NCBI RefSeq assembly: GCF_004138135.1
Contig: NZ_RYFD01000002.1
Span: 124,001 to 188,000 of the forward strand
DNA length: 64,000 nt
Reading direction: 5' to 3'
Source: Candidatus Oscillochloris fontis
Lineage (GTDB): Bacteria; Chloroflexota; Chloroflexia; Chloroflexales; Chloroflexaceae
The position numbers were made by a program, and so were the translations under genes. Each line of letters starts with the position of its first letter. The stretch's first letter is position 1. Below the pieces are notes generated by a model. It saw nothing but the letters and a program-made list of their open reading frames with translations, searched no databases and was not told the origin of the DNA. Positions 11,359 to 55,456 of the stretch are shown piece after piece.

Positions 11359-13269
11359 ATGTCTCAGCAACATGAGAACAAGACTCTCTCTCTGGGCGAA
11401 ACGATTGAGGAGATCATGAATCGGCGGATGAGCCGCCGTGATCTGCTCAAGGGCGCAGTAGGTGTCACCTCGGCGGCCATGTTGGGTGCGCTAGGCTTGC
11501 GGGCGACGAATGCGGCAGCCGCCCCCACTCCGGCGCTACGCTTCGCGTCTGTTACACCAACTGCACCGACCTTCGATGATGTGGTTGTGCCGGAGGGCTA
11601 CTATGCGCGAACCCTCATTCGTTGGGGTGAGCCATTGACCACCAGCGCTCCTACGCATAATGTCTGGGAGCAGACGCCGCAGGCGCAGGCGGAACAATTT
11701 GGCTACAACTGCGACTTTGTGGGTTTCCTGCCCCTGCCCTTTGGTTCAAATGTTTCGGATCATGGTCTGCTCTTCGTCAGCCACGAGTACACCAACCCTG
11801 AGTTGATGTTCCCCAACTACGACTTTAACGCACCCACCCGCAACCAGGTGGATATCGAACTTGCAGCGCATGGTGTCTCGGTTGTTGAGGTGCGACGCGC
11901 CTATGACGGTACCTGGAACTATGTGCGGAACTCACAGTATAATCGCCGCATCACCGGCGAGACCCCCATTCGGATCAGTGGGCCTGTGGCTGGTCACGAG
12001 TGGCTGAAGACCAGTGAAGATCCGACGGGGACGCTGGTGCGCGGGACGCTCAACAATTGTGCGGGTGGCAAGACCCCCTGGGGGACGGTGCTGACCGCCG
12101 AAGAGAACTTCCATCAGTACTTCGGCAATCTCAGCAAGTTGAGCAGCAGCGACCCGCGTGTGGCGGTGCATAAGCGCTATGGCGTTCCGGCTGAGACGAC
12201 CGAGTTGCACTGGGAAGCGTTCCACGCCCGCTTTGATGTCTCCCAGGAACCCAACGAGGTCTTCCGCTTTGGCTGGATGGTTGAAATTGATCCCTACGAT
12301 CCGACATTTACGCCGGTGAAGCGCACCGCGCTGGGGCGTTTCCGCCACGAGGCGGCAACGATTGGGATCGCCAAGAATGGCCAGGTGGTGGCCTATAGTG
12401 GCGATGACCAGCAGTTTGAGTATGTCTACAAGTTCATCACCAAGGGCACCTACAACGCCAAGGATCGCAAGGCCAACTTTGGCATCCTTGACGAAGGTAC
12501 GCTCTATGTCGCGAAATTCAATGATGATGGGAGCGGCGTTTGGATGCCGTTGGTCTATGGTCAGGGGCCATTAACGGCAGCCAACGGCTTTACCTCGCAG
12601 GCGGATGTGCTGATCAACACGCGCAAGGCAGCCGATCTTCTGGGTGCAACGAAGATGGATCGCCCGGAGGACATCGAGCCAAATCCGGTGAACAAGAAGA
12701 TCTACATCGCGCTGACGAACAACAGCGCCCGTGGCACCGAGGGTAAGCCAGGGGTGGATGCAGCCAACCCACGCGCCAAGAACCGCACGGGTCAAGTGAT
12801 CGAACTGACCGAAGCCGGGGATGACTATGCCAGCCTGACCTTCAAGTGGGAACTGTTGCTCCTGTGTGGCCTGCCCAGCGATGAGAGTACCTACTTTGCC
12901 GGGTACGACAAGAGCAAGGTCAGCCCCATCGCCTGCCCCGATAATGTCATGTTCGACAACGCGGGCAACCTTTGGATCGCAACCGATGGTGCGGCCAATG
13001 GGATCAAGTACAACGATGGGCTCTTTGTGGTGCCGGTAAGTGGGAAAGAGCGCGGCCATGTGCAGCAGTTCTTCTCCAGCGTGGCAGGTTCGGAGGTGTG
13101 TGGGCCAGAGTTGACCCCCGACAACCGCACGGTCTTCCTGGCTATTCAGCACCCTGGCGAGGGTGGCACCTTTGAAAGCCCGGTCAGCACATGGCCGGAT
13201 CGGGTCGGTCTCCCGCGCCCCAGCGTACTGACCATCCAGGCGTTTGATAGCCGGGTGATCGGGAGTTAG
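11359..13269 (+). CDS. PhoX-type phosphatase (DUF839), Tat-exported
   Basis: A 636-residue protein with a twin-arginine signal (SRRDLLKG near residue 24, then a hydrophobic stretch ending NAAAAP). The rest matches the PhoX/DUF839 family: FLPLPFGSNVSDHGLLFVSHEY, the NCAGGKTPWGTVLTAEENF block, and the C-terminal FDNAGNLWIATDGAANG. The family includes calcium- and iron-dependent alkaline phosphatases that release phosphate from organic esters outside the cytoplasm. A role in phosphorus scavenging would fit the phn locus in the same window, but some DUF839 proteins have no proven phosphatase activity. An AAGGAG ribosome site precedes the ATG. The stop codon abuts a tandem repeat. Confidence 0.82.
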   Translation: MSQQHENKTLSLGETIEEIMNRRMSRRDLLKGAVGVTSAAMLGALGLRATNAAAAPTPALRFASVTPTAPTFDDVVVPEGYYARTLIRWGEPLTTSAPTHNVWEQTPQAQAEQFGYNCDFVGFLPLPFGSNVSDHGLLFVSHEYTNPELMFPNYDFNAPTRNQVDIELAAHGVSVVEVRRAYDGTWNYVRNSQYNRRITGETPIRISGPVAGHEWLKTSEDPTGTLVRGTLNNCAGGKTPWGTVLTAEENFHQYFGNLSKLSSSDPRVAVHKRYGVPAETTELHWEAFHARFDVSQEPNEVFRFGWMVEIDPYDPTFTPVKRTALGRFRHEAATIGIAKNGQVVAYSGDDQQFEYVYKFITKGTYNAKDRKANFGILDEGTLYVAKFNDDGSGVWMPLVYGQGPLTAANGFTSQADVLINTRKAADLLGATKMDRPEDIEPNPVNKKIYIALTNNSARGTEGKPGVDAANPRAKNRTGQVIELTEAGDDYASLTFKWELLLLCGLPSDESTYFAGYDKSKVSPIACPDNVMFDNAGNLWIATDGAANGIKYNDGLFVVPVSGKERGHVQQFFSSVAGSEVCGPELTPDNRTVFLAIQHPGEGGTFESPVSTWPDRVGLPRPSVLTIQAFDSRVIGS

Positions 13270-13600
13270 TAGGGGCGAAGCATCGCATCCCCAACATGAT
13301 TGGGGTTTCCCCGGTCATCTGGCGGGCGATGCTTCGCCCCTACGGGATGACGGGGCATGGCGGGGGCATGTAGGGGCGAAGCATCGCATCCCCAACATGA
13401 TTGGGGTTTCCCCGGTCATCTGGCGGGCGATGCTTCGCCCCTACGGGGGATGACGGGGCATGGCGGGGGCATGTAGGGGCGAAGCATCGCATCCCCAACA
13501 TGATTGGGGTTTCCCCGGTCATCTGGCGGGCGATGCTTCGCCCCTACGGGATGACGGGGCATGGCGGGGTAGCCGTTGGCGGGCGATGCTTCGCCCCTAT
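13270..13600. repeat. Tandem array of a ~102-bp unit built on the family B palindrome
   Basis: Units start at 13270, 13371 and 13474 (periods 101 and 103 bp), with a partial fourth copy at about 13578-13600. Each has TAGGGGCGAAGCATCGC at one end and GCGATGCTTCGCCCCTA near the other, an internal ACCGG/CCGGT-flanked section and a GATGACGGGGCATGGCGG tail. The units are almost identical, so the expansion is recent. The array fills the whole gap between two convergent genes, and its last TAG is the stop codon of btuD. Confidence 0.9.
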
Positions 13601-41519: not shown

Positions 41520-41609
<90 letters not shown>

Positions 41610-41622
41610 TCTCATTATCTGG

Positions 41623-41698
41623 GGGCGATTAGCTCAGTTGGTAGAGCACCTCGCTTACACCGAGGTTGTCGGCGGTTCGAGCCCGTCATCGCCCACCA
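41623..41698 (+). tRNA. tRNA-Val (anticodon TAC)
   Basis: A 76-nt tRNA: acceptor GGGCGAT with ATCGCCC, anticodon loop CTTACAC, TTCGAGC loop, encoded CCA. Confidence 0.95.
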
Positions 41699-41717
41699 GT
41701 GAGAGTGCCAGCACCAC

Positions 41718-41793
41718 GCCAAGGTAGCTCAGTTGGTAGAGCATCGCACTGAAAATGCGAGGGTCACCAGTTCAAGTCTGGTCCTTGGCACCA
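41718..41793 (+). tRNA. tRNA-Phe (anticodon GAA)
   Basis: A 76-nt tRNA: acceptor GCCAAGG with CCTTGGC, anticodon loop CTGAAAA, TTCAAGT loop, encoded CCA. Last of the cluster; a terminator follows after six bases. Confidence 0.95.
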
Positions 41794-44636: not shown

Positions 44637-44717
44637 TTCACCCAAATCCCCTCTGCCCTTGACCGCGATTTAACACCCCCTTAGTCAACCCCGCTTACAC
44701 TTGCGCCGCAGCGTGTG

Positions 44718-45170
44718 ATGGCTTTGCCTACATGGGATGACTTCTCCATGTCCTACCCCGATCAATCTTTCTCCCTGAGTGTCCTCAGCCGTAGTCCGGC
44801 TACGCTGGTTAAGGATTTTGTTGAGAGCTTGTTGCCCGCTCTGGAACCAGTGGAGGTGTTGTACAACGCCACTGGCTTGGTCATGCTGCCGATGCAGGAT
44901 ACGGCCAAGGGTACGACCTTCTATGTGGGTGAGGTGTTGGTGGCCTCGGCGCGGGTGCGGTTGGCGGGTGGCGAGGGCTATGCCGCCTGTCTGGGCCGTG
45001 ATCTGACCCAGGCGTTGGCGCTGGCGTTGCTTGATGCGGCCTGCGCGGCGGGGTGTTGTCGTGCCGAGATTGCCGCGTTTGTGCAGGCGCAAGCAGCGGC
45101 GCTGGAGGCGGAGGATCTGGCGCTGCGGCACCAGATTGAGGCTACTCGTGTGGAGCTAGAGACATTCTGA
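44718..45170 (+). CDS. phnG: C-P lyase core subunit PhnG
   Basis: PhnG is part of the PhnGHIJ core that joins alkylphosphonate to ATP ribose and then breaks the carbon-phosphorus bond. The protein matches PhnG over its length: LSVLSRSPATLVKDFVESLL, the beta-strand block GTTFYVGEVLVASARVRLAG, GYAACLGRDLTQALALAL and a C-terminal RVELETF. The start is unsure: ATG 44718 is used, but ATG 44748 (MSYPDQ) aligns better with other PhnG N-termini. It is the first gene of the operon and overlaps phnH by one base. Confidence 0.88.
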   Translation: MALPTWDDFSMSYPDQSFSLSVLSRSPATLVKDFVESLLPALEPVEVLYNATGLVMLPMQDTAKGTTFYVGEVLVASARVRLAGGEGYAACLGRDLTQALALALLDAACAAGCCRAEIAAFVQAQAAALEAEDLALRHQIEATRVELETF

Positions 45171-45718
45171 TGATTACTCCTCAGTTGACGGCGTTTGAGG
45201 CCCAGAGTCAGCAGACGTTCCAGGCGCTCATGTGGGCGCTGAGTTACCCGGGGCGAGCGCAGCGCATCGCCGAGGTGGGTGTGGCAGCCTTCGCGGCGGT
45301 CGGGGCGACCCTGATCGATCTGGAGACGAGTTACTACACCAACCATGCTGGCTTGGTCCAGTTGCTGGCACATAGTGGGGCGCGGGCGTTGGGGCCGCAG
45401 CATGCCCACTACCAGTTCTACCCCGATCTGCCCAGCACGGCGCTCGATGATCTGGCGCTGGCCCCGGTCGGTACGTACCTTGACCCCGACTCTTCGGCGA
45501 CGTTGGTGCTGAGTTGCCACCTGGGTGCGGGTGAACGGCTGCGCCTGAGTGGGCCGGGTATCCCCGCACCGTTCATGGTGAATCTGGGTGGCTTGCCGCC
45601 GGGGTTCTGGGAGTTGCGCACCAATGTGTGCCAGTTCCCGCTTGGGTGGGACATCTTCTTCATTGCGCACGACCAACTGATCGGTCTGCCGCGTACAACC
45701 AAGGTTGAGGTGCTTTAG
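45170..45718 (+). CDS. phnH: C-P lyase core subunit PhnH
   Basis: A 182-residue PhnH, a PLP-transferase-like fold without the cofactor that completes the core complex. Family landmarks are QQTFQALMWALSYPGRAQR at the start, GATLIDLETSYYT, GTYLDPDSSATLVLSC and the end FIAHDQLIGLPRTTKVEV. It overlaps phnG and phnI by one base each, which shows translational coupling. Confidence 0.93.
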   Translation: MITPQLTAFEAQSQQTFQALMWALSYPGRAQRIAEVGVAAFAAVGATLIDLETSYYTNHAGLVQLLAHSGARALGPQHAHYQFYPDLPSTALDDLALAPVGTYLDPDSSATLVLSCHLGAGERLRLSGPGIPAPFMVNLGGLPPGFWELRTNVCQFPLGWDIFFIAHDQLIGLPRTTKVEVL

Positions 45719-46785
45719 TGGCCTATGTTGCGGCACGTGGCGGTGAAGCGGCGATCCAAGAGGCTGAGGCGCTCTTTCGCCGTCTGAATGGGACGCTTGA
45801 TGCCGGTTTGGTGCAGCAGATCGAGCGCCAGTTGCCCTATCTGGTGGATCGGGTGATGAGTGAAGGCTCGCTCTATGCGCCGGAGTTGGCCGCGTTGGCC
45901 ATCGCGCAGACCGGGGGTGATCTGTATGAGGCGATCTTGTTGCTGCGCGCCTACCGTTCGACGCAGCCACGGGTGGCCTATGCTGCGCCGGTTGATCCGG
46001 CAACTATGCAGACGCTGCGGCGCATCTCGGCGGCGTTTAAGGATATTCCCGGTGGCCAGATTCTTGGCCCGACCCTCGATTATAGCCACCGTCTCTTGCG
46101 CACGGATCTGCTTGATGGTGATGCGCAGGGAGAGGTAGCGAGCGAACAGCCCACAACCTCCGAATTGCCCGTGCTCCCCGATCTGCCCATCCCTCCCGTC
46201 ACCGAATGGCTACGCCTCAACGGGCTGCTGGAGGCGCTCCCGCCTCAGCCCCCCGCCGACCCGGCGCTCCTGCCCGATGTGACTCGTGAGGCGGTGCGTT
46301 TCCCGGCGCCGCGTGCGCAACGCTTACAGTCGCTTGCCCGCGCCGATACGGGTGGAGTGCTGGCGCTTGGGTATGCCAGTATGCGCGGTTATGGCCTCAT
46401 CCATCCTACGGTGAATGAGGTGCGCCTGGGCTATGCCGATGTGCTGCTCGAACATCCTATCAGTGGGGAGCGCTTTAGTGCGGGGCGGGTGCGGGTGAGT
46501 ATGGCCGAGGTGGTGAGTAGCCACGGCGATACACTGGAGTTGGGCTATGCGGCCACGTTGGGGTGGAATGAGGTGAAGGTGATTGCTGGCGCGATGCTCG
46601 ATCTGGAGATGGATAAGCCCAATCCGCACCCGGCGCATGACGAGGAGTTCGTGCTCTACCATACCGAGCCGGTTGAGTCGTCGGGGTTCTGTATTCACTA
46701 CAAACTACCCCATTATGTCACCTTCAGCAGCAACCTGGACGCACTGCGCCGGGCACGCGAGGCTGCGGCGGAGGATACCGAATGA
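45718..46785 (+). CDS. phnI: C-P lyase core subunit PhnI
   Basis: A 355-residue PhnI, the nucleosidase that with PhnG, H and L replaces adenine of ATP by the phosphonate. It has the expected length and blocks: YVAARGGEAAIQEAEALFRR, GYASMRGYGLIHPTVNEVRL, and CIHYKLPHYVTFSSNLD. In E. coli His328 and His333 of this last block help form a metal site at the contact with PhnJ; both are present here as His327 and His332. GTG start; four-base ATGA overlap with phnJ. Confidence 0.95.
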   Translation: MAYVAARGGEAAIQEAEALFRRLNGTLDAGLVQQIERQLPYLVDRVMSEGSLYAPELAALAIAQTGGDLYEAILLLRAYRSTQPRVAYAAPVDPATMQTLRRISAAFKDIPGGQILGPTLDYSHRLLRTDLLDGDAQGEVASEQPTTSELPVLPDLPIPPVTEWLRLNGLLEALPPQPPADPALLPDVTREAVRFPAPRAQRLQSLARADTGGVLALGYASMRGYGLIHPTVNEVRLGYADVLLEHPISGERFSAGRVRVSMAEVVSSHGDTLELGYAATLGWNEVKVIAGAMLDLEMDKPNPHPAHDEEFVLYHTEPVESSGFCIHYKLPHYVTFSSNLDALRRAREAAAEDTE

Positions 46786-47723
46786 GCCTCCAACAACTTG
46801 CGCATCCGCGCCATGACTATAGTTATGCCTTTTTGGATGAGTTTGCCAAGCGCGAATTGCGCCGCCGTATCCTCAAGGCCATCGCCATCCCCGGCTATCA
46901 GGTGCCATACGCCAGCCGCGAATTGCCGATGGCGCGCGGTTGGGGTACCGGCGGTCTGCAAGTGACCCTGGCCGCCGTCGGGCCGACAGACACGGTCAAG
47001 GTGATTGACCAGGGCGCGGATGACTCGGTCAATGCGGCCAACCTGCGCCGCTTTATTGCGCGTATGGCCGGCGTGCAGACCACCACCGATGTGTTGGCGG
47101 CGACGATCATCCAGAGTCGCCACCGTATCCCCGAAGAGCGGCTGCGCGAGGGGCAACTGTTGGTGTTGCAGGTGCCGGTGCCCGAACCACTGACCCATGT
47201 GGAACCGAGTGTCACCCGTGCGCGCCAGATGCATGCCGACGCCGATTATGCGCTGATCTGGCTTGAACTGCACGAGCAGTTGGTACGTTACCGCACCTTT
47301 ACCGGCGGAGCCGACTACCCGGTGGTGGTACACGGGCGCTACCTGATGGCTCCGAGTCCTATTCCGCGCTGGGATACCCCGATGCTGCACCAGGCTGCTC
47401 ACCTGACCCTGCTCTCGGCGGGGCGTGAGAAGCGCTTGTATGCGGTGCCGCCCTATACCGATGTGCGCCCGATTGAGTTCGAGGATGTCCATTTTCAGGT
47501 TGAGAACCAAGCGGGCCGGGTGTGTGCGCAGACCGGCGCGATCAACCGCTTTATGAATGAAGTCCCCCAGCCCGATGGCAGTTCGCGCTACATCCTCTCC
47601 GACACCGGCTATGCGGCAAAGCTCGTGCAGCGGGCGCAGGGTGAAGGAGTCGAGATCGGTGCGACCTACTATGACGATCAGGGCCGGTTCTACCATACGG
47701 GATTCTTGCACCATGATGACTAG
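46782..47723 (+). CDS. phnJ: PhnJ-family C-P lyase subunit lacking most catalytic cysteines
   Basis: PhnJ normally is the radical SAM subunit that breaks the C-P bond. This 313-residue protein aligns well over residues 12-245: ILKAIAIPGYQVPYASRELP (with the conserved Gly38), GWGTGGLQVTLAAVG, KVIDQGADDSVN, PSPIPRWDTPML, GREKRLYAVPP. The cysteine region is different. E. coli has CAIC...FVCSDTDYC; here the same block reads VCAQTG (248-252) and YILSDTGYA (270-278). So only the first cysteine (C248) remains; the second is Thr251, the third Leu272, and the proposed thiyl-radical Cys272 is Ala278. A 35-residue C-terminal extension is also unusual. The reading frame is intact and coupled to its neighbours. 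Confidence 0.93.
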   Translation: MSLQQLAHPRHDYSYAFLDEFAKRELRRRILKAIAIPGYQVPYASRELPMARGWGTGGLQVTLAAVGPTDTVKVIDQGADDSVNAANLRRFIARMAGVQTTTDVLAATIIQSRHRIPEERLREGQLLVLQVPVPEPLTHVEPSVTRARQMHADADYALIWLELHEQLVRYRTFTGGADYPVVVHGRYLMAPSPIPRWDTPMLHQAAHLTLLSAGREKRLYAVPPYTDVRPIEFEDVHFQVENQAGRVCAQTGAINRFMNEVPQPDGSSRYILSDTGYAAKLVQRAQGEGVEIGATYYDDQGRFYHTGFLHHDD

Positions 47724-48519
47724 ACCGAGCCTTGATCAGCCGCGCTTGGTGCGCGATGTACCACTGCTCCAAGCGCGTGGGTTGAGCCGCCGTTATGGCG
47801 CGATTACGGCGATTGATGGGGTGGATCTGAGTGTCTACCGGGGTGAAGTGTTGGGGATCGTGGGCGAATCGGGGTCGGGCAAATCCACGGTGCTGCGGCT
47901 GCTCAACCTCGAAGAGCCAGCCGATGCAGGCACGTACTACCTCGATCTGCCGGGCTATACCGATCAGAATCTCTTCACCATGGATCGCTACTTCCGTCGC
48001 CAAATTCAGATCCGGCATATCGGCATTGTCTACCAGAACCCCTACCTGGGGCTGCGCATGCGCCATACCAGTAGCGGCAATGTGGCCGAGCGGCTGATCA
48101 TGGCGGGCGAGCGCAACTTTGGCACGCTGCGCCATGCGGCCAAGACCGCGCTCAGCGCCTCGGAGTTTCCGCTGGAGCGCATGGACGATCTACCGATCCG
48201 GCTCTCTGGCGGTATGCAGCAGCGCGTCCAACTGGCACGGGCGCTGGCACTGCGGCCCATGCTCCTGCTGCTCGATGAACCCACCACCGGCCTTGATGTC
48301 TCGGTACAGGCGTTGGTGCTGGATACCCTGGCGCGTATTCAGCGTGAACTCCAGATCGCTACCGTGATCGTCTCGCATGATCTGGGAGTCATCCGGGCGC
48401 TCGCCGACCGGGTGATGGTGATGCGCCATGGGCGTGTGATCGAGCATGGCCTGACCGACCAGATCCTCGAAGATCCGCAAGAGGCATACACACAGCAACT
48501 GGTTTACGCAAAACTATGA
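47713..48519 (+). CDS. phnK: C-P lyase ABC-type subunit PhnK
   Basis: A 268-residue ABC protein that docks on the PhnJ-PhnI core. Walker A GESGSGKSTVL (near residue 50), signature RLSGGMQQRVQLA, Walker B LLLLDEPTTGLDVS, and the PhnK-typical IGIVYQNPYLGLRMRHTSSG. It overlaps phnJ by about ten bases and phnL by four. ATG 47713 or 47716 may be used. Confidence 0.94.
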   Translation: MMTRPSLDQPRLVRDVPLLQARGLSRRYGAITAIDGVDLSVYRGEVLGIVGESGSGKSTVLRLLNLEEPADAGTYYLDLPGYTDQNLFTMDRYFRRQIQIRHIGIVYQNPYLGLRMRHTSSGNVAERLIMAGERNFGTLRHAAKTALSASEFPLERMDDLPIRLSGGMQQRVQLARALALRPMLLLLDEPTTGLDVSVQALVLDTLARIQRELQIATVIVSHDLGVIRALADRVMVMRHGRVIEHGLTDQILEDPQEAYTQQLVYAKL

Positions 48520-49217
48520 GCATACTCGATGTTCAGGGCTTCAGCAAACAGTTCTTCGTTCACCACCTGCAACGCCAGATCCCGGCCTTTAACGAGGTTG
48601 ACTTCCGGCTGCACGCGGGTGAGTTCTTACTGGTGCGTGGTGTCAATGGGGTGGGCAAATCCACCCTACTGCGCTGTCTCTACCGTTCCTACCTGCCCAC
48701 AGCGGGGCGGGCGATCTACCACGCCCATGCGGGCCTGATCGATCTGGCATGCGCCGCCGATGTGGATATTGCCGCCCTGCGTCGCACCGAGATCGGCCAT
48801 GTCACCCAGTTCCTGCGGGCGCGTCCGCGTGTCAGTGCGATAGATGTGGTGATAGAGCCACTGCTCAGCCAAGGCCACAGCCGCGCCGAGGCGCACCAAA
48901 TCGCCGCTGAGTGGTTGGATGCCTTCGGTCTCAAAGCGGATATTTGGGACGCCTACCCAAGCACCTTCTCTGGGGGTGAGCAGCAGAAGGTGAATCTGGT
49001 GCGCGCCTTGATCGTGCCGCGCCGTCTGTTGCTGCTCGACGAACCCACCGCCTCACTCGATGCCAGTGCGCGGGCCGCATTGGTGGCGCGACTGGCCCAG
49101 ATCAAAGCGCAGGGTGTGGCGATGATCGGTGTCTTCCACCACCCGGAGGACGTGCGCGATCTGGTTGATGGTGAACTGCACTTAACGAATGTACAGGTAG
49201 ATTATGTGGCTAACTGA
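48516..49217 (+). CDS. phnL: C-P lyase ABC-type subunit PhnL
   Basis: A 233-residue ABC protein, second ATPase of the pathway, needed with PhnG, H and I for the first step. Walker A is GVNGVGKSTLLRCLY, signature FSGGEQQKVNLVRAL, Walker B LLLLDEPTASLDAS. Text GHVTQFLRARPRVSAIDVV is typical of PhnL. Overlaps phnK by four and phnM by 14 bases. Confidence 0.94.
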   Translation: MSILDVQGFSKQFFVHHLQRQIPAFNEVDFRLHAGEFLLVRGVNGVGKSTLLRCLYRSYLPTAGRAIYHAHAGLIDLACAADVDIAALRRTEIGHVTQFLRARPRVSAIDVVIEPLLSQGHSRAEAHQIAAEWLDAFGLKADIWDAYPSTFSGGEQQKVNLVRALIVPRRLLLLDEPTASLDASARAALVARLAQIKAQGVAMIGVFHHPEDVRDLVDGELHLTNVQVDYVAN

Positions 49218-50418
49218 TCTTCAGATCGTGCTTCCAGACGGGGTGATCGAGCGCGGTGCCCTACAGATCAATGATGGTCGGATCGCCCAGATTGTGGAGG
49301 GCGATGCGTTGCTGGATCGGGCGGGCAGTGTGGTGGATGGCAGTGGCCTCATCCTCATGCCGGGCATGATTGATATGCACGGTGATATGTTGGAGAGCGA
49401 GGTTGAACCGCGTCCGGGGGTGCATTTCCCGATAGACATGGCGGTCTTTGAGTTGGATAAGCGCCTAGCGGCAAATGGCATCACCACCGCCTACGCGGCA
49501 CTCTCCTTTTGGGATGGGATGTCGGGGCGTAGCGCCAACCACCGTTCGGGTGAACACGCCCACCGCATGAGTAGCGCCGTCTACAACCTGCGCAACCAGT
49601 TGCTGATTGACCTGCGCATCCATGCCCGCTACGAGGTACCGACGCCATCGGTAGCTCCGGCGCTGGTTGATCTGCTGGATCGTGGGATGGTGCATATGGT
49701 CTCGCTGATGGATCACACCCCCGGCCAGGGTCAGTACCGCGACATGGAGCAATATGTCTCCTTCATTGCCAAGTGGCGCAACGCCAGCCCCGCCGAGGTA
49801 GAAGCCGAAACCCACGAACGTATCCAGAACGCCAAGAACGACCCGCACATCTGGCGCACAGCGGCGGATATTGTCACCCAGGCATTGTCGAAGCACCTCC
49901 CGATTGCCTCGCACGATGACGACACCGTGCAGAAGATTGACCAGATGGCCGACTTCTCGGTGACAATTAGCGAGTTCCCCGTCACCCTAGCGGCGGCGCA
50001 GGAGGCGCGGCGGCGCGGGATGGCGGTGGTGATGGGCGCACCCAATATTCTGCGCGGCGGCTCACATTCGGGCAACCTGAGCGCCATCGAGGCGGTGCTG
50101 GCTGGGGTAGTGGATATGCTGGCCGCCGACTATGCGCCCGCTGCACTGCTTCAGGCGATCTTTATTCTGGTGGACAAGGGCATCCTGCCGTTGCACGCGG
50201 CGGTCAATCTGGTGAGCCAGAACGTCGCCACAGCCCTCGGCCTGCTTGATCGCGGGCGGATCGCAGCCGGTCTGAGCGCCGATCTGATCCTGGTTGAGCC
50301 GGGGCCACGCCCACGGGTACGCGGGACGATCCGGCGCGGGGTGCCAATCTACTGGGATGCGGCAATGGCGCTGCGCACGAGCGTTCACGATTGGGGGAAA
50401 CGGGTTGGGTATTCTTGA
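49204..50418 (+). CDS. phnM: Ribose-1-methylphosphonate triphosphate diphosphatase PhnM
   Basis: PhnM removes pyrophosphate from the ribose 1-phosphonate 5-triphosphate, giving the substrate for PhnJ. The 404-residue amidohydrolase shows LILMPGMIDMHGDMLESEVE (HxD metal ligands near residue 60), HMVSLMDHTPGQGQYRD, the SHDDDT motif and VVMGAPNILRGGSHSGN. Full length. It ends eight bases before a cluster of family A repeats. Confidence 0.95.
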   Translation: MWLTDLQIVLPDGVIERGALQINDGRIAQIVEGDALLDRAGSVVDGSGLILMPGMIDMHGDMLESEVEPRPGVHFPIDMAVFELDKRLAANGITTAYAALSFWDGMSGRSANHRSGEHAHRMSSAVYNLRNQLLIDLRIHARYEVPTPSVAPALVDLLDRGMVHMVSLMDHTPGQGQYRDMEQYVSFIAKWRNASPAEVEAETHERIQNAKNDPHIWRTAADIVTQALSKHLPIASHDDDTVQKIDQMADFSVTISEFPVTLAAAQEARRRGMAVVMGAPNILRGGSHSGNLSAIEAVLAGVVDMLAADYAPAALLQAIFILVDKGILPLHAAVNLVSQNVATALGLLDRGRIAAGLSADLILVEPGPRPRVRGTIRRGVPIYWDAAMALRTSVHDWGKRVGYS

Positions 50419-50425
50419 GCGGAAC

Positions 50426-50927
50426 GTAACTGTTCACACTTCTCCTAGCTTCCAGTTTTTGACGCAAAGACGCAGAGGCGCAAAGCCTGCAACAAAACCT
50501 TTGCGTCTTTGCGCCTTTGCGTCAATCAGAAGCTTCCTTTACCCCAAGTGTGAACAGTTACAGCGGAACCTCTGGTTGACGCAAAGACGCCAAGGCGCAA
50601 AGCCGACAACAGTAACTGTTCACAGTTCTCCTAGCATTCCGGTTTTGACGCAAAGGCGCAAAGGCGCAAAGCCGACAACAAAACCTTGGCGTCTTTGCGC
50701 CTTTGCGTCAATCAGAAGCTTCCTTTACCCCAAGTGTGAACAGTTACCGGCAACAAAACCTTTGCGTCCTTGCGCCTTTGCGTCAATACGAGATTTCTTT
50801 TACCCCAAGTGTGAATAGTTACACGTCTTAGTGCCTTTGCGTCAAGAAGAGAATGCTATTTACTCCATAAAGTGAACAGATACGCGCCTTGGCGTCTTTG
50901 CGTTAAAGCCGTGATGCTAGGAGAAGA
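50426..50927. repeat. Cluster of family A palindromic repeats
   Basis: The 513-bp gap between phnM and the next gene holds no gene and is almost all repeat. Full copies lie at 50426-50561 and 50612-50747 and are nearly identical. Partial copies occupy 50571-50611, 50748-50822, 50823-50883 and 50884-50927. Ends are GTAACTGTTCACACTT and AAGTGTGAACAGTTAC. The last piece supplies CTAGGAGA, which acts as ribosome site of the next gene. Confidence 0.9.
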
Positions 50928-50931
50928 GACC

Positions 50932-51588
50932 ATGGGCCGCTACTTCGAAGCCTTCCCGCCCCAGACCCGCCACTACAGCCCCCAACTGAGTGTTGAGCCA
51001 AGCATTGATCCCACGGCTCAGATCTTCAACTCGCACCTGGGCAGTTGGAGCGAGATCGGCCCACGGGTGGTGGTGAGCGAGAGCAACATTGGCGACTACA
51101 CCTACGCCTCGAACGATACTCAGATCGCCTACAGTGAGATCGGCAAGTTCGGCTCGATTGCCGCCCACGTGCGCATCAACCCGGTCAACCACCCCATGCA
51201 GCGCGTAACCCAGCACCACTGCACCTACCGTCGGGTGGCTTACGGCTTCGATACGGCGGATGATGCTGAGATCTTCGCTTGGCGGCGGGCGGCACGCTGC
51301 GTGATCGGCCCTGATGTCTGGATCGGCCATGGGGCGATCATCATGCCGGGGGTGACGATAGGAACCGGGGCGGTGGTGGGGTCGGGGGCGGTGGTAACGA
51401 AAGACGTAGAACCCTACATGATCGTGGTGGGTGTGCCCGCCCACCCGGTGCGCCCGCGCTTTGATGCTGAGACGGTGGCGCAGTTGCTGGCGATTGCGTG
51501 GTGGGATTGGGACCACGCCACGCTGACTGAGCGCTTTCATGATCTGCTCGATATGCCTACGTTTTTGCAAAAATATGCAAAAACGTAG
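50932..51588 (+). CDS. Phosphonate-locus hexapeptide transferase
   Basis: A 218-residue left-handed beta-helix protein. It matches the hexapeptide acyltransferase family often found beside phn genes (TIGR03308 type): opening SVEPSIDPTAQIFNSHLGSW, repeats with IGD/IGK turns, ARCVIGPDVWIGHGAIIMPG, GAVVTKDVEPYMIVVGVPA. It may acetylate an aminoalkylphosphonate or a related intermediate, the role PhnO has in E. coli (inference). The ATG at 50932 has AGGAGA upstream, which comes from the preceding repeat. Confidence 0.85.
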   Translation: MGRYFEAFPPQTRHYSPQLSVEPSIDPTAQIFNSHLGSWSEIGPRVVVSESNIGDYTYASNDTQIAYSEIGKFGSIAAHVRINPVNHPMQRVTQHHCTYRRVAYGFDTADDAEIFAWRRAARCVIGPDVWIGHGAIIMPGVTIGTGAVVGSGAVVTKDVEPYMIVVGVPAHPVRPRFDAETVAQLLAIAWWDWDHATLTERFHDLLDMPTFLQKYAKT

Positions 51589-51710: not shown

Positions 51711-51822
51711 TGATTTGATCACGAATTTTAATAATTATAAATAAACGATTTAATATCTGCATAATATGACCAGATTAAACTCACGGAGCGATAGTGTGGC
51801 TTTTTATAGACCCGGAGGGATT

Positions 51823-52893
51823 ATGCGGTTGCGTTCGCTAATGAGTCTCTTCACCCTGATCTTCGTCTTGTCGGCATGTTCTAGTACACCGGCATCCACC
51901 CCCTCTTCCAGCGCTCCGGCACCCAGCGCGGCTGCCGACACCTCCCCGATCATTATGGCCTGGTACCCCAACGAGTCGGGGTCGGAACTCGGCGCTGCGC
52001 GTGATGCCTTGGCGGCGGTGGTGAGTGAGGCGCTCAAGCGCCCGGTGCAGCACCAGACCACTACCGACTACATCATTGCGATTGAGGCCATGGCCAACAA
52101 CAACGCTCACCTCGCCTTCTTTGGTGCCGAGGGCTATGTGCAGGCTCACGATAAGAACCCCAAGGTACTGCCACTGGTTCTTCCGAGCGGCACCGATGGC
52201 ACCCTGAATGGCGCGGTCTACTATAGCTGGCTGGCCGTTATGCGTGGACAGGAAGGCAACTACCAGGAGAACGGTGCCTTCAAGCTCGACAACATCCAGG
52301 GCCAGCGCTTCTCCTTCGTCTCGAACAGCTCCACCTCTGGCTTCCGCGTGCCCTCGGCAAACATCCTCAATTACTTCTCGGCTCAGGAGAAGTGGAAGGA
52401 TCTGACCTCAGATGATCTGATCGAGGGCGGTGCGGACAACTTCTTCTCCGAAGTGCAGTTTGGTGGCTCGCACCAGGGTTCGGCGGTCAACCTGATCTCC
52501 GGCAAGGTGGATGTGGCCGCCTTCTGCGATACCTGTGTCGAGAACTATGTCACTCTGGTCGAAGGTACCGCCAACACGGCTGGCGCGGTCTATCGTGTCA
52601 ACGAGAAGGCCGACGAGCCATTCACGCAGTATGCGGGCGCCGAGTTTGTGATCATCTCGGCCACCCCGGTGCTGAACGCGCCCTTTGTGGTGAATACCAC
52701 GATGCTCACCGAGGCCGAGATCCAGACACTGAAGGACGCGCTTACCTCGGATGCGGTGGCTCAGAACACCCAGATCTTCGCCCCCAAGGAGGTGGTCGAG
52801 GCGGGTTATAAGCCGCTCTTCCGCAAGACCAAAGACGAGCGCTTCGTGCTGGTCGAGGACGCCTTCTTTGACCCGATCCGGGCGCTGCGCTAA
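51823..52893 (+). CDS. phnD: Phosphonate ABC transporter, substrate-binding lipoprotein PhnD
   Basis: A 356-residue lipoprotein (lipobox VLSACS near residue 20, then a Ser/Pro-rich linker) with a PhnD-type binding domain: IIMAWYPNESGSELGAARDA, the ligand loop RFSFVSNSSTSGFRVPSANI, and VNLISGKVDVAAFCDTCVEN. It should bind phosphonates or phosphite outside the membrane. The ATG at 51823 has GGAGG upstream; the longer frame lacks this. A family A repeat sits three bases after its stop. Confidence 0.93.
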   Translation: MRLRSLMSLFTLIFVLSACSSTPASTPSSSAPAPSAAADTSPIIMAWYPNESGSELGAARDALAAVVSEALKRPVQHQTTTDYIIAIEAMANNNAHLAFFGAEGYVQAHDKNPKVLPLVLPSGTDGTLNGAVYYSWLAVMRGQEGNYQENGAFKLDNIQGQRFSFVSNSSTSGFRVPSANILNYFSAQEKWKDLTSDDLIEGGADNFFSEVQFGGSHQGSAVNLISGKVDVAAFCDTCVENYVTLVEGTANTAGAVYRVNEKADEPFTQYAGAEFVIISATPVLNAPFVVNTTMLTEAEIQTLKDALTSDAVAQNTQIFAPKEVVEAGYKPLFRKTKDERFVLVEDAFFDPIRALR

Positions 52894-52895
52894 GG

Positions 52896-53044
52896 GTAAC
52901 TGTTCACACTTATCCTAGCATCTCGGTTTTGACGCCAAGACGCCAAGACGCCAAGCCTTCAAGATAAACACCCATCAAAACCTTTGCGTCTTTGCGCCTT
53001 TGCGTCAACCAAAGGCTTTGTTTACCCCAAGGGTGAACAGTTAC
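52896..53044. repeat. Palindromic repeat, family A (between phnD and phnC)
   Basis: GTAACTGTTCACACTT opens and GGTGAACAGTTAC closes; the interior has GACGCCAAGACGCC and CTTTGCGCCTTTGCGTC arms. It starts three bases after the phnD stop codon, inside the phnDCEE operon, and may lower downstream transcription relative to phnD. Confidence 0.88.
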
Positions 53045-53068
53045 CTACTCCACCCGAAGGAGACTCCG

Positions 53069-53857
53069 ATGCACCTGCTCCAAGTGGACTCGCTCACCAA
53101 GCGCTATGGCCACGAGACCCTCGCACTGAACGAGATCAGTTTTGATGTGCGCCCCGGCGAGTTTGTGGCCATCATTGGCCCCTCTGGGGCGGGCAAATCC
53201 ACGCTGCTGCGCTGCCTCAATCGGCTGATTGACATTAGTAGTGGCCAGGTACACTTCGATGGGGTGAATGTCTCGTCGCTACGCGGTGCGGCCCTGCGCC
53301 GTCAGCGCACCCAGATCGGGATGATCTTTCAACACTACAACCTCGTCAACCGGCTGAGCGTGATCGAGAACGTGCTGCACGGACGGCTGGGCTATAAGGG
53401 CACCTTCGCGGGCATCCTGGGCCTCTATAGTGAGCAGGAGAAGCAGGACGCCGTGCGCATCATCGAGAGTGTCGGACTGGGCGAGCAGATCTACAAACGC
53501 TGCGACCAACTCAGCGGCGGGCAGAAGCAGCGCGTCGGGATTGCGCGGGCACTGGTGCAGCAGCCCAAGATGCTGTTGTGTGACGAGCCGATTGCCTCGC
53601 TTGACCCCAATTCTTCCAAGATCATCATGGATACGCTGCGCGAGATCAACCAGAACCTCGGCATTACCGTGCTGGTCAATCTGCACCAAGTAGATGTGGC
53701 CCTGCGCTATGCCGACCGCCTGATCGGGATTAAGCGCGGCCAACTCGTCTTTGATGGCGACCCCAACCTCATCACTGACCACCAGATCCATCAGATCTAC
53801 GGCTCCGAGTCGGGTGATCTGATGCTCAACCCGCGTGAACGTTATGCAGCCGCTTGA
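53069..53857 (+). CDS. phnC: Phosphonate ABC transporter ATPase PhnC
   Basis: A 262-residue ABC ATPase: Walker A GPSGAGKSTLLRCLN, the PhnC-specific IGMIFQHYNLVNRLSVIENV, signature QLSGGQKQRVGIARAL, Walker B LLCDEPIASLDPNSS. The start at 53069 has AAGGAG upstream. It overlaps phnE by 14 bases. Confidence 0.95.
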   Translation: MHLLQVDSLTKRYGHETLALNEISFDVRPGEFVAIIGPSGAGKSTLLRCLNRLIDISSGQVHFDGVNVSSLRGAALRRQRTQIGMIFQHYNLVNRLSVIENVLHGRLGYKGTFAGILGLYSEQEKQDAVRIIESVGLGEQIYKRCDQLSGGQKQRVGIARALVQQPKMLLCDEPIASLDPNSSKIIMDTLREINQNLGITVLVNLHQVDVALRYADRLIGIKRGQLVFDGDPNLITDHQIHQIYGSESGDLMLNPRERYAAA

Positions 53858-54632
53858 CATCTTCCAACTCCGCCGCCGCCACGCGATCTTCTTCTTTCTC
53901 GTGCTGGTCGCGCTGACCTACGGGGCCGTCTTGGTGACGGAGTATGATACGGTGCGCGGCTTGACCGCACTGCCACGCGCCGCAACCTGGGCGGCGAGTA
54001 ACTTTGTCCCCGATGCGGAGGCCTTCCGCCGCCTACCCCGCATCCTCGCCAAGTTGCTCGATACGGTGCTGATGGCGATCTCATCGGCAACGGTGGCCTC
54101 GGCATGTGGGTTGGTGGTGGCGCTGATGGGGGCCACGACGACGCGCTTGCACCCCTGGTTGAGCCTGCCTGCCCGTGGGATTGCCAGCGTCTTCCGCAAT
54201 ATTGATGTGTCGGCCTGGGCACTCATTCTGCTCTTCTCGTTTGGCCAAAGCTCCTACACCGGCTATTTTGCCCTCTTCTTTGTCACCTTCGGCTTCATCG
54301 TGCGCGTGATGATCGAGACCATAGACGAAGTCAGTACCGATTCGGTCGAGGCGCTGCGGGCGACCGGAGCGGGCTACCTGGCGATCATCAGCCAGAGCAT
54401 CATCCCGGCCTGTCTGCCGCAACTGATCAGTTGGGTACTCTTCATGATCGAGACCAACATCCGCAGCGCCACCCTGGTCGGTATTCTCACCGGCACCGGG
54501 ATCGGCTTTGCCTTCGACCTCTACTTCAAGAGCTTCAACTACAGTTCGGCCAGTCTGGTGGTGCTCGTGATTGTGGTAGCCGTATTGTTGATAGAATCGC
54601 TATCGAATGCCATCCGACGGGCGGTGTTGTAA
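53844..54632 (+). CDS. phnE: Phosphonate ABC transporter permease PhnE (1)
   Basis: A 262-residue permease with about six helices and the EAA loop VEALRATGAGYLAIISQSII. VRVMIETIDEVSTDSVEAL is typical of PhnE. It overlaps phnC and, by one base, the second permease gene. Confidence 0.92.
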   Translation: MQPLDIFQLRRRHAIFFFLVLVALTYGAVLVTEYDTVRGLTALPRAATWAASNFVPDAEAFRRLPRILAKLLDTVLMAISSATVASACGLVVALMGATTTRLHPWLSLPARGIASVFRNIDVSAWALILLFSFGQSSYTGYFALFFVTFGFIVRVMIETIDEVSTDSVEALRATGAGYLAIISQSIIPACLPQLISWVLFMIETNIRSATLVGILTGTGIGFAFDLYFKSFNYSSASLVVLVIVVAVLLIESLSNAIRRAVL

Positions 54633-55456
54633 TGGCAGTAACGACTCACTCTGGGCGTATTCGGGTGCGCCCGCTCACCAAGGCTAACCTGAGCATTCAG
54701 GTGACATTGATCGGCCTGACGCTGCTGACAATCTATAGCTTTACCACCTTTGACGCCCGCAATATCAATCTCGTCGAGGCGCTGGGCGAGATGTTGAACA
54801 GCTTTCGCCTACTCTTCTTCGAGCCGCACCTAAAGAATACCGGCTGGGTTGAGTTGTGGCACGTCCTCTTGGTGACGATAGGGCTAGGCTTTCTGACCAC
54901 CATTTTCGGCGCGATCATCGCCTTCTTTCTGGCGCTGCTGGCGGCCCAGAACCTCGCCCCGCGCTGGCTGGCCCAGGTGATCCGCGCTGGCACCGCCGTT
55001 GTCCGTGCCGTCCCCACCGTCCTTTGGGTACTCTTCTTTGCCGTCTCGGCGGGTCTCGGCAGCGTCGCCGCTGTCCTCGGCATGACCTTTCACTCGGCGG
55101 GCTACTTGATCAAAGCCTACTCTGAGTCGTTCGAGGAGATCGAACCGGGGGTGCTCGAAGCCCTGCGGGCGAGTGGCGCAAGTTGGTGGCAGACGATCTT
55201 CCAGGCGGTGTTGCCCGCCTCTGCCTCGGCGCTGCTCTCGTGGACCTTTGTGCGCTTTGAGATCAACTTCTCGACTGCGATTGCCATGGGCGCGACGGCG
55301 GGTGCCGGTGGGATCGGCTACAACATGTTTATGGCGAGTGTCTATTACCTCGATCTGCGCGAACTCGGCGCACTAAGTTATGCCATCTTGCTCTTCGCCA
55401 TGCTGCTAGAGTGGCTGGCCACCCGGATGAAGGCGAATTTGGGAGCGAAATCGTGA
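54632..55456 (+). CDS. phnE: Phosphonate ABC transporter permease PhnE (2)
   Basis: A 274-residue second permease with the same EAA pattern (LEALRASGASWWQTIFQAVL) and end region GATAGAGGIGYNMFMASVYY. The two permeases probably form a heterodimer. Last gene of the phn locus; only 14 bp separate its stop from that of the convergent menE. Confidence 0.92.
   Translation: MAVTTHSGRIRVRPLTKANLSIQVTLIGLTLLTIYSFTTFDARNINLVEALGEMLNSFRLLFFEPHLKNTGWVELWHVLLVTIGLGFLTTIFGAIIAFFLALLAAQNLAPRWLAQVIRAGTAVVRAVPTVLWVLFFAVSAGLGSVAAVLGMTFHSAGYLIKAYSESFEEIEPGVLEALRASGASWWQTIFQAVLPASASALLSWTFVRFEINFSTAIAMGATAGAGGIGYNMFMASVYYLDLRELGALSYAILLFAMLLEWLATRMKANLGAKS

Follow-up and report, generated by a model that had tools for sequence, protein, structure and literature searches.

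The window, a stretch of 64,000 nucleotides from Candidatus Oscillochloris fontis, contains homologues of phnG to phnM in one operon, followed by the gene of a hexapeptide-repeat transferase known from C-P lyase operons and by importer genes (Table 1). The subunits and the gene order G-H-I-J-K-L-M are those of the Escherichia coli C-P lyase, and the PhnJ fold, the PhnI Zn site, and the ligand contacts of that enzyme are also found. Nevertheless, the window PhnG, PhnK, and PhnL score below the cut-offs of their NCBIfam equivalogs, and no NCBIfam model matches the window PhnI or PhnJ. In the following, operons are called type I if their PhnJ contains cysteines at all four positions 241, 244, 266, and 272 of the E. 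coli protein (CCCC) and type II if the last three of these are missing; both labels were coined here. The E. coli PhnJ reference used for the alignment matches PDB 4xb6 chain D over the shared residues 6-274. Imperfect tandem repeats with units of 75 and 61 bp lie between phnM and the transferase gene (window 50672-50903).

Table 1. Genes and functionally relevant residues of the phn operon in the window. Equivalent residues refer to E. coli PhnI and PhnJ.
Feature	Position	Strand	Evidence or conservation
phnG (type II)	44715..45170	+	Pfam PhnG 1.4e-21; TIGR03293 86.2 bits, just below cut-off 89
phnH (type II)	45170..45718	+	Pfam PhnH 5.5e-34; TIGR03292 above cut-off
phnI (type II), nucleosidase/Zn-site subunit	45718..46785	+	Pfam PhnI 5e-118; E. 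coli PhnI 7z15_C 2.9e-67
PhnI His229 = His219, open-state Zn ligand (PMC9947105)	46402..46404	+	99/99 type II, 42/44 type I
PhnI Cys325, two residues before Zn ligand His327 (His328)	46690..46692	+	type-II-specific
PhnI His327 and His332 = Zn ligands His328 and His333	46696..46713	+	invariant in both types
phnJ (type II), 313 aa	46782..47723	+	Pfam PhnJ (PF06007) 1.6e-123; no NCBIfam match
PhnJ Gly38 (GGC) = Gly32, proposed glycyl-radical residue	46893..46895	+	invariant in both types
PhnJ loop GWGT 53-56, counterpart of the E. coli loop	46938..46949	+	conserved in both types; role PMC9947105
PhnJ Arg113-His114 = Arg107-His108, ribose and cyclic phosphate contact	47118..47123	+	invariant in both types; role PMC9947105
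PhnJ Gln130 = Gln124, ribose contact	47169..47171	+	invariant in both types
PhnJ Cys248 (TGT) = Cys241	47523..47525	+	type II: Cys 92/99, Asp 7/99
PhnJ Thr251 (ACC), replaces Cys244	47532..47534	+	Ser/Thr 99/99 type II; Cys 71/71 type I
PhnJ Leu272 (CTC), replaces Cys266	47595..47597	+	V/L/I/A/M in type II; Cys 71/71 type I
PhnJ Ala278 (GCG), replaces Cys272 (proposed thiyl)	47613..47615	+	Cys 0/99 type II; 71/71 type I
phnK (type II), without 4-Cys insert; start 47713 or 47716 inferred	47713..48519	+	TIGR02323 223.8 bits, below cut-off 302.85
phnL (type II)	48516..49217	+	TIGR02324 238.4 bits, below cut-off 256.3
phnM, ribosyl-phosphonate triphosphate diphosphatase	49204..50418	+	NF011988 and TIGR02318 above cut-off
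Hexapeptide-repeat transferase of C-P lyase operons	50872..51588	+	TIGR03308 279 bits, above cut-off
phnD-like substrate-binding lipoprotein	51766..52893	+	Pfam Phosphonate-bd 8.6e-37; nearest solved chain phosphite-binding PtxB 1e-7
phnC importer ATPase, true start probably later	53000..53857	+	TIGR02315 354.8 bits
phnE permease	53835..54632	+	ORF; BLAST homologues beside phnC/phnD in other type II operons
Second phnE permease, start inferred	54632..55456	+	ORF; BLAST homologues beside phnC/phnD in other type II operons

In the mechanism described for E. coli, PhnJ holds a cluster on Cys241, Cys244, and Cys266, Cys272 performs the attack, and a glycyl radical is placed at Gly32 (PMC7916636). 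The window PhnJ aligns unambiguously with the E. coli protein (4xb6 chain D, E 8e-84 with phmmer). Reading it codon by codon confirms that three of the four cysteines are absent, as a preliminary description of this DNA had reported, and that the motifs VCAQTG (247-252) and YILSDTGYA (270-278) are exactly as given there; the span of 47520-47612 given there ends just before the Ala278 codon. Cys248 is the sole cysteine of the 313 residues. The proposed glycyl-radical glycine is kept, as had also been noted, so that, of the features of the E. coli radical mechanism, the glycine is present while the cluster ligands and the thiyl cysteine are missing. The same holds in comparison with radical SAM and glycyl-radical enzymes: Gly38 is found within the segment proposed for the PhnJ glycyl radical, but the protein has neither a three-cysteine cluster motif nor a thiyl cysteine. 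Judged by its sequence, the window PhnJ cannot provide the three-cysteine [4Fe-4S] site or the Cys272 thiyl of E. coli from its own residues. Strictly speaking, a [4Fe-4S] cluster could still be bridged between subunits or held by non-cysteine ligands. The AlphaFold model of the window PhnJ superposes on 7z19_D over 274 residues at 1.6 Å (Z 38.2), including the cysteine domain, with a pLDDT of 87.7 and values of 94-95 across residues 251-300. Because this confident model matches E. coli PhnJ there, the domain appears to fold without metal ligands.

A canonical copy elsewhere in the genome, which the preliminary description had suggested to look for, was not found: the genome is 99.99% complete and contains a single PF06007 match. 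The alignment across phyla that it had also suggested was built from relatives in the own phylum, in 85,000 named genomes, on plasmids, and in Deinococcota. The resulting 170 distinct PhnJ sequences separate into 71 with CCCC and 99 without cysteines at positions 244, 266, and 272, and there are no intermediates. In the latter group, position 241 is Cys (92) or Asp (7), position 244 is always Ser or Thr, position 266 is aliphatic or Met, and position 272 is mostly Gly, Ala, or Val. Five of these sequences are entirely devoid of cysteines, and in four cases this is the only PhnJ of the genome (G404, G405, G602, and G629). A sequencing error as the cause of the pattern is ruled out because 98 other distinct sequences share it, including those from an Oscillochloris isolate and from finished replicons (Thermus thermophilus HB8 pVV8 and Haematobacter massiliensis pOT1-5).

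In a tree of the PhnJ core, from which the cysteine domain was excluded, the 99 type II sequences form a single clade (SH-aLRT 99.4, UFBoot 100, branch length 0.30), and the split between the types has a FastTree support of 0.997. PhnG, PhnH, PhnI, PhnK, PhnL, and PhnM show the same split without a single misplaced sequence, with small canonical samples (5-10) for PhnG, PhnH, and PhnM. Type II is thus a subtype of the whole operon. The picture of a single unusual protein among normal subunits, which the preliminary description had drawn, can therefore not be maintained, given that the other six subunits belong to the same separate branch and that this branch spans three phyla with at least 99 distinct sequences. 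As far as sequences can tell, the window operon represents a distinct, monophyletic whole-operon subtype rather than a degraded version of the E. coli operon. Because all type II sequences belong to one clade, the type II counts given here do not represent independent events, and each trait may have arisen in a single event. It had also been stated that PhnJ has lost its cysteines. Their absence is real but the direction was assumed: the PhnJ tree had no usable outgroup and is unrooted, and loss in type II as opposed to gain in type I is therefore only an inference.

Type II operons were found in Chloroflexota, Deinococcota (including T. thermophilus HB8), and Alphaproteobacteria, while the 71 canonical PhnJ include sequences from haloarchaea, beta- and gammaproteobacteria, and also Chloroflexota. 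One chloroflexotal genome (G281) encodes two complete canonical phn operons (L139 and L140) about 13 kb apart, both with CCCC. The genomes of 48 carriers were searched for PhnJ in full. The type II protein is the only PhnJ in the carriers from Chloroflexota and Deinococcota, including the Oscillochloris genomes. In contrast, a second PhnJ, canonical by score, is present in 36 of the 40 carriers tested from Alphaproteobacteria; such genome-level counts of canonical copies in alphaproteobacteria are mostly based on match scores, but all ten second copies read in sequence have CCCC. In several genomes the type I and type II operons are located on one contig, often about 14-20 kb apart. That both types coexist in alphaproteobacteria suggests that type II differs in its substrate range or in the conditions under which it is used. 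Because most of these carriers keep both types, type II may accept a narrower or a different range of substrates compared to the canonical enzyme.

The operon is intact and strongly constrained, which agrees with the earlier statement that the locus is not decaying. Compared to the closest relative, whose PhnJ is 92% identical, the dN/dS values are 0.058 for PhnJ, 0.094 for PhnI, 0.135 for PhnG, and 0.285 for PhnH, although these values are rough because synonymous sites are near saturation. PhnJ has the lowest value of the four genes. Together with the conserved cysteine pattern, the low dN/dS rules out a decaying locus. In E. coli, PhnJ contacts the ligand with Arg107, His108, Gln124, and the loop 47-50 (PMC9947105). 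All 88 type II PhnJ on which ligand-contact conservation was first scored have the equivalents of these residues and of Gly32, and 41 positions are invariant across both types in a reduced set.

This conservation bears on the proposal that PhnJ could be purely structural in type II, with the pathway ending at the ribosyl-phosphonate. PhnJ is indeed a subunit of the core complex, the cysteines would no longer be needed if catalysis were lost, and phnN is rarely found near type II operons, with neither phnN nor phnP matching above cut-off in the window genome. However, a scaffold would not be expected to be the most constrained of the subunits compared, nor to keep Arg107, His108, Gln124, and the loop 47-50 in 88 of 88 sequences. 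Because the pocket is so well kept, we regard this as the least likely of the alternatives and as very improbable. The preliminary description had offered three options, which are all still candidates: a different chemistry, another source of the radical, and a stop after ribosylation, the last of which fits poorly with the conserved pocket.

Another source of the radical would be a separate activase generating the radical at Gly38, with a PhnI cysteine acting as the thiyl, so that an ordinary radical C-P lyase would result. A separate activase has a precedent in the glycyl-radical enzyme pyruvate formate-lyase and its activating enzyme. Gly32 is invariant in type II, and a cysteine of PhnI (Cys325) is found two residues from a Zn ligand. 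However, a recurring gene for an Fe-S or radical SAM protein is absent from type II operons, and the sequences of the Thermus group have no cysteine at this PhnI position. Furthermore, in E. coli Gly32 is located about 30 Å from the Fe-S site and about 30-31 Å from the Zn site (PMC9947105). As type I shows the same invariance and the Zn site is 31 Å away, Gly32 may be structural, and because of its invariance in both types and the distance of about 30 Å to both E. coli sites its retention, to which the preliminary description had pointed, is a weak argument. An activase of this kind therefore seems quite unlikely to us. An Fe-S subunit encoded in the operon as replacement was also considered and rejected, as a recurring candidate is absent across the type II operons. 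Directly after the Gly32 equivalent, at E. coli position 33, a cysteine is found in 12 of 42 type II PhnJ of the reduced set and in none of 27 type I PhnJ (for example PGCQMPYASRE in alphaproteobacteria); the remaining type II sequences have Tyr or His there.

The ligand of the E. coli enzyme is located at a Zn site between PhnI and PhnJ (PMC9947105, PMC7916636). The model of the window PhnI superposes on 4xb6_C (Z 32.4), and the Zn-site histidines are kept in type II together with the ligand-contact residues and Gly32. Besides lacking PhnJ Cys244, Cys266, and Cys272, type II differs from the E. coli enzyme in the cysteine two residues before His328 of PhnI. Of 97 type II sequences, 94 have Cys at this position and the other three (Thermus group) have Ala, but all 66 type I sequences have V, L, T, or I. 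Cys325 is the sole cysteine of the window PhnI. The monomer model of PhnI shows a helix across residues 318-329 with a pLDDT of about 70, and the side chain of Cys325 can therefore not be placed by the Zn. Outside the Thermus group, Cys325 is the main candidate for a thiol that could act as replacement, be it as hydrogen donor, nucleophile, or Zn ligand. It cannot be a universal replacement because the Thermus group carries Ala there. Other recurring cysteines (in PhnG, PhnH, PhnK, and PhnM) were considered for this role but are found in only part of type II, so that PhnI 325 stands out.

On balance we think it somewhat probable that type II is a working complex cleaving its substrate at the Zn site between PhnI and PhnJ without the Fe-S/thiyl centre of E. 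coli. In this scheme the importer would bring in a phosphonate or a related phosphorus compound, PhnG, PhnH, PhnI, and PhnL would attach the phosphonate to ribose, PhnM would trim the triphosphate, and PhnK and PhnL would open the core complex. Cleavage of the bond to phosphorus by PhnJ and PhnI would follow at the Zn site through a chemistry independent of a PhnJ cluster, with the PhnI cysteine next to the Zn ligand His328 serving as replacement thiol except in the Thermus group. We propose only tentatively the far-reaching version, that a widespread C-P lyase cleaves at this site without a PhnJ [4Fe-4S] cluster, mostly via the PhnI cysteine, and that the mechanism based on the cluster and Cys272 either does not apply to all C-P lyases or does not describe the step in which the bond is broken. 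Biochemical or growth results on any type II complex were not found in the open literature.

The cysteines of PhnJ are not the only ones missing in type II. In PhnK, the Walker A motif is preceded by a CxxC...CxxC insert in 32 of 68 type I but in none of 96 type II sequences. The insert of the type I PhnK (e.g. L002, L010, and L153), an ABC ATPase without transport function, is likely a metal-binding knuckle. The joint absence of PhnJ Cys244, Cys266, and Cys272 and of this insert would be expected of an isoenzyme that performs the same C-P lyase reaction but has dropped its cysteine metal sites to spare metal. Among ribosomal proteins, zinc and zinc-free paralogues are known, which could serve as a model. 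The coexistence of both types in many alphaproteobacteria would fit, as would the arrangement in E. coli, where about 30 Å separate the cluster site from Gly32 and the ligand is located at the Zn site. If this were true, the PhnJ cluster would be non-catalytic even in E. coli, although the cluster and Cys272 have been described as catalytic there (PMC7916636). In addition, the insert-less type I PhnK (36 of 68), which include the alphaproteobacterial ones, are still paired with a CCCC PhnJ, and the two sets of cysteines are therefore not tightly linked. We consider a metal-sparing isoenzyme rather unlikely.

The neighbourhood of the operons, for which flanks of 7-10 kb of an uneven sample were counted, also differs between the types. 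The type II operons are complete and are accompanied by an importer and the TIGR03308 transferase. In these flanks phnN is found near about 6% of the type II but 66% of the type I operons (p 3e-9), and DUF1045 near 6% and 47%, respectively. The rarity of phnN implies that the exit route differs. The window genome also differs from E. coli in having no match above cut-off for PhnN (best match 58 bits, cut-off 156) or PhnP (best match 111 bits, cut-off 272), and unrelated enzymes could substitute in these steps. The canonical operons of Chloroflexota (for example L010 and L029) and the canonical alphaproteobacterial copies (L111-L120) contain the same pathway genes and importers but have a CCCC PhnJ, often phnN and DUF1045, and in many cases the PhnK insert. 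Within these limited flanks, 8 of 49 type II operons have a sugar-type (CUT1) ABC importer and calcineurin-like metallophosphoesterases nearby, compared to 0 of 38 type I operons (p 0.009). A minority of type II operons (L141, L121, and similar ones) also adjoins a xylose-isomerase-like TIM barrel. The operon on pVV8 of T. thermophilus HB8 belongs to the type II branch as well (PhnJ CRRTG...VSDGGYMEK) but differs from that of the window in the Ala at the PhnI cysteine and in adjoining genes for a sugar ABC importer, a YmdB-type phosphoesterase, and a sugar isomerase. Such neighbours are a possible hint at sugar-esterified phosphonates.

The same neighbours might point to cleavage of a different bond. 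A P-O, a P-N, or an activated P-C bond could be cleaved by polar transesterification, in which the 2'-OH of the ribose attacks and the leaving group is expelled, and type II would then scavenge organophosphates or special phosphonates instead of alkylphosphonates. This would explain why the substrate pocket and the Zn site are kept while only the radical residues are gone, and it agrees with the coexistence of type II with the canonical type I and with the 8 of 49 versus 0 of 38 operons next to CUT1 importers and metallophosphoesterases. However, phosphonate-type importers are still encoded in the operons, as is the TIGR03308 protein, the link to CUT1 importers and phosphoesterases concerns only a minority, and simple phosphatases would be a cheaper route to the same job. 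Cleavage of a different bond is thus unlikely in our view.

The importers themselves do not help with the substrate, as the solved binding proteins nearest to PhnD bind phosphonate or phosphite for both types and give no clear signal. The PhnD-like protein of the window is long (375 aa), and the only relatives with a solved structure that it matches at E 0.001 are PtxB proteins, which bind phosphite. A lead to glycerol-phosphate importers (GpxB/UgpB, PMC12718374) was abandoned, the accessible part of that text containing no link to phn. Reports of methane release by Sulfitobacter HI0054 (PMC5649143) and from the Rhodobacteraceae fosmid B3_TF_MPn_2 (PMC3840354) were set aside as evidence for type II function because canonical-scoring PhnJ are present in 94 of 150 sampled Rhodobacterales genomes, only six of which additionally have a full-length type II PhnJ, and the operon type in the two reports was unread.

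How C-P lyase breaks the highly stable C-P bond and thereby releases methane in oxic waters is unsettled, given that the cluster and Cys272 are about 30 Å away from Gly32 and the ligand is at the Zn site (PMC9947105, PMC7916636). The type II clade makes the question directly testable, as the Zn site and the pocket are kept and the cluster cysteines are absent; it can be regarded as nature's own test of whether the PhnJ cluster cysteines are needed. Cultured carriers such as T. thermophilus HB8 exist. The four cysteines have been reported as conserved in PhnJ of Methylotenera (PMC11978286) and have been used as a marker in Vibrio (PMC12413358). In one survey, sequences without catalytic residues were removed, and phnI was assigned to alphaproteobacteria and phnJ mostly to Actinomycetia (PMC9381506). 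Surveys filtering on catalytic residues may lose type II PhnJ. Type II records are named "alpha-D-ribose 1-methylphosphonate 5-phosphate C-P-lyase PhnJ", and not every phnJ should be counted as a methane-producing enzyme. Like the preliminary description, which knew of no such PhnJ, we found no paper on a PhnJ lineage without these cysteines in the open literature, although most subscription journals were outside this scope and the absence is therefore unproven.

Two other features were observed in the window. It contains three near-identical tandem copies of 103 bp (13269-13569), whose consensus unit carries GTAGGGGCGAAGCATCGC and its reverse complement. Three tRNA genes, for Leu(gag), Val(tac), and Phe(gaa), are clustered at 41520-41793.
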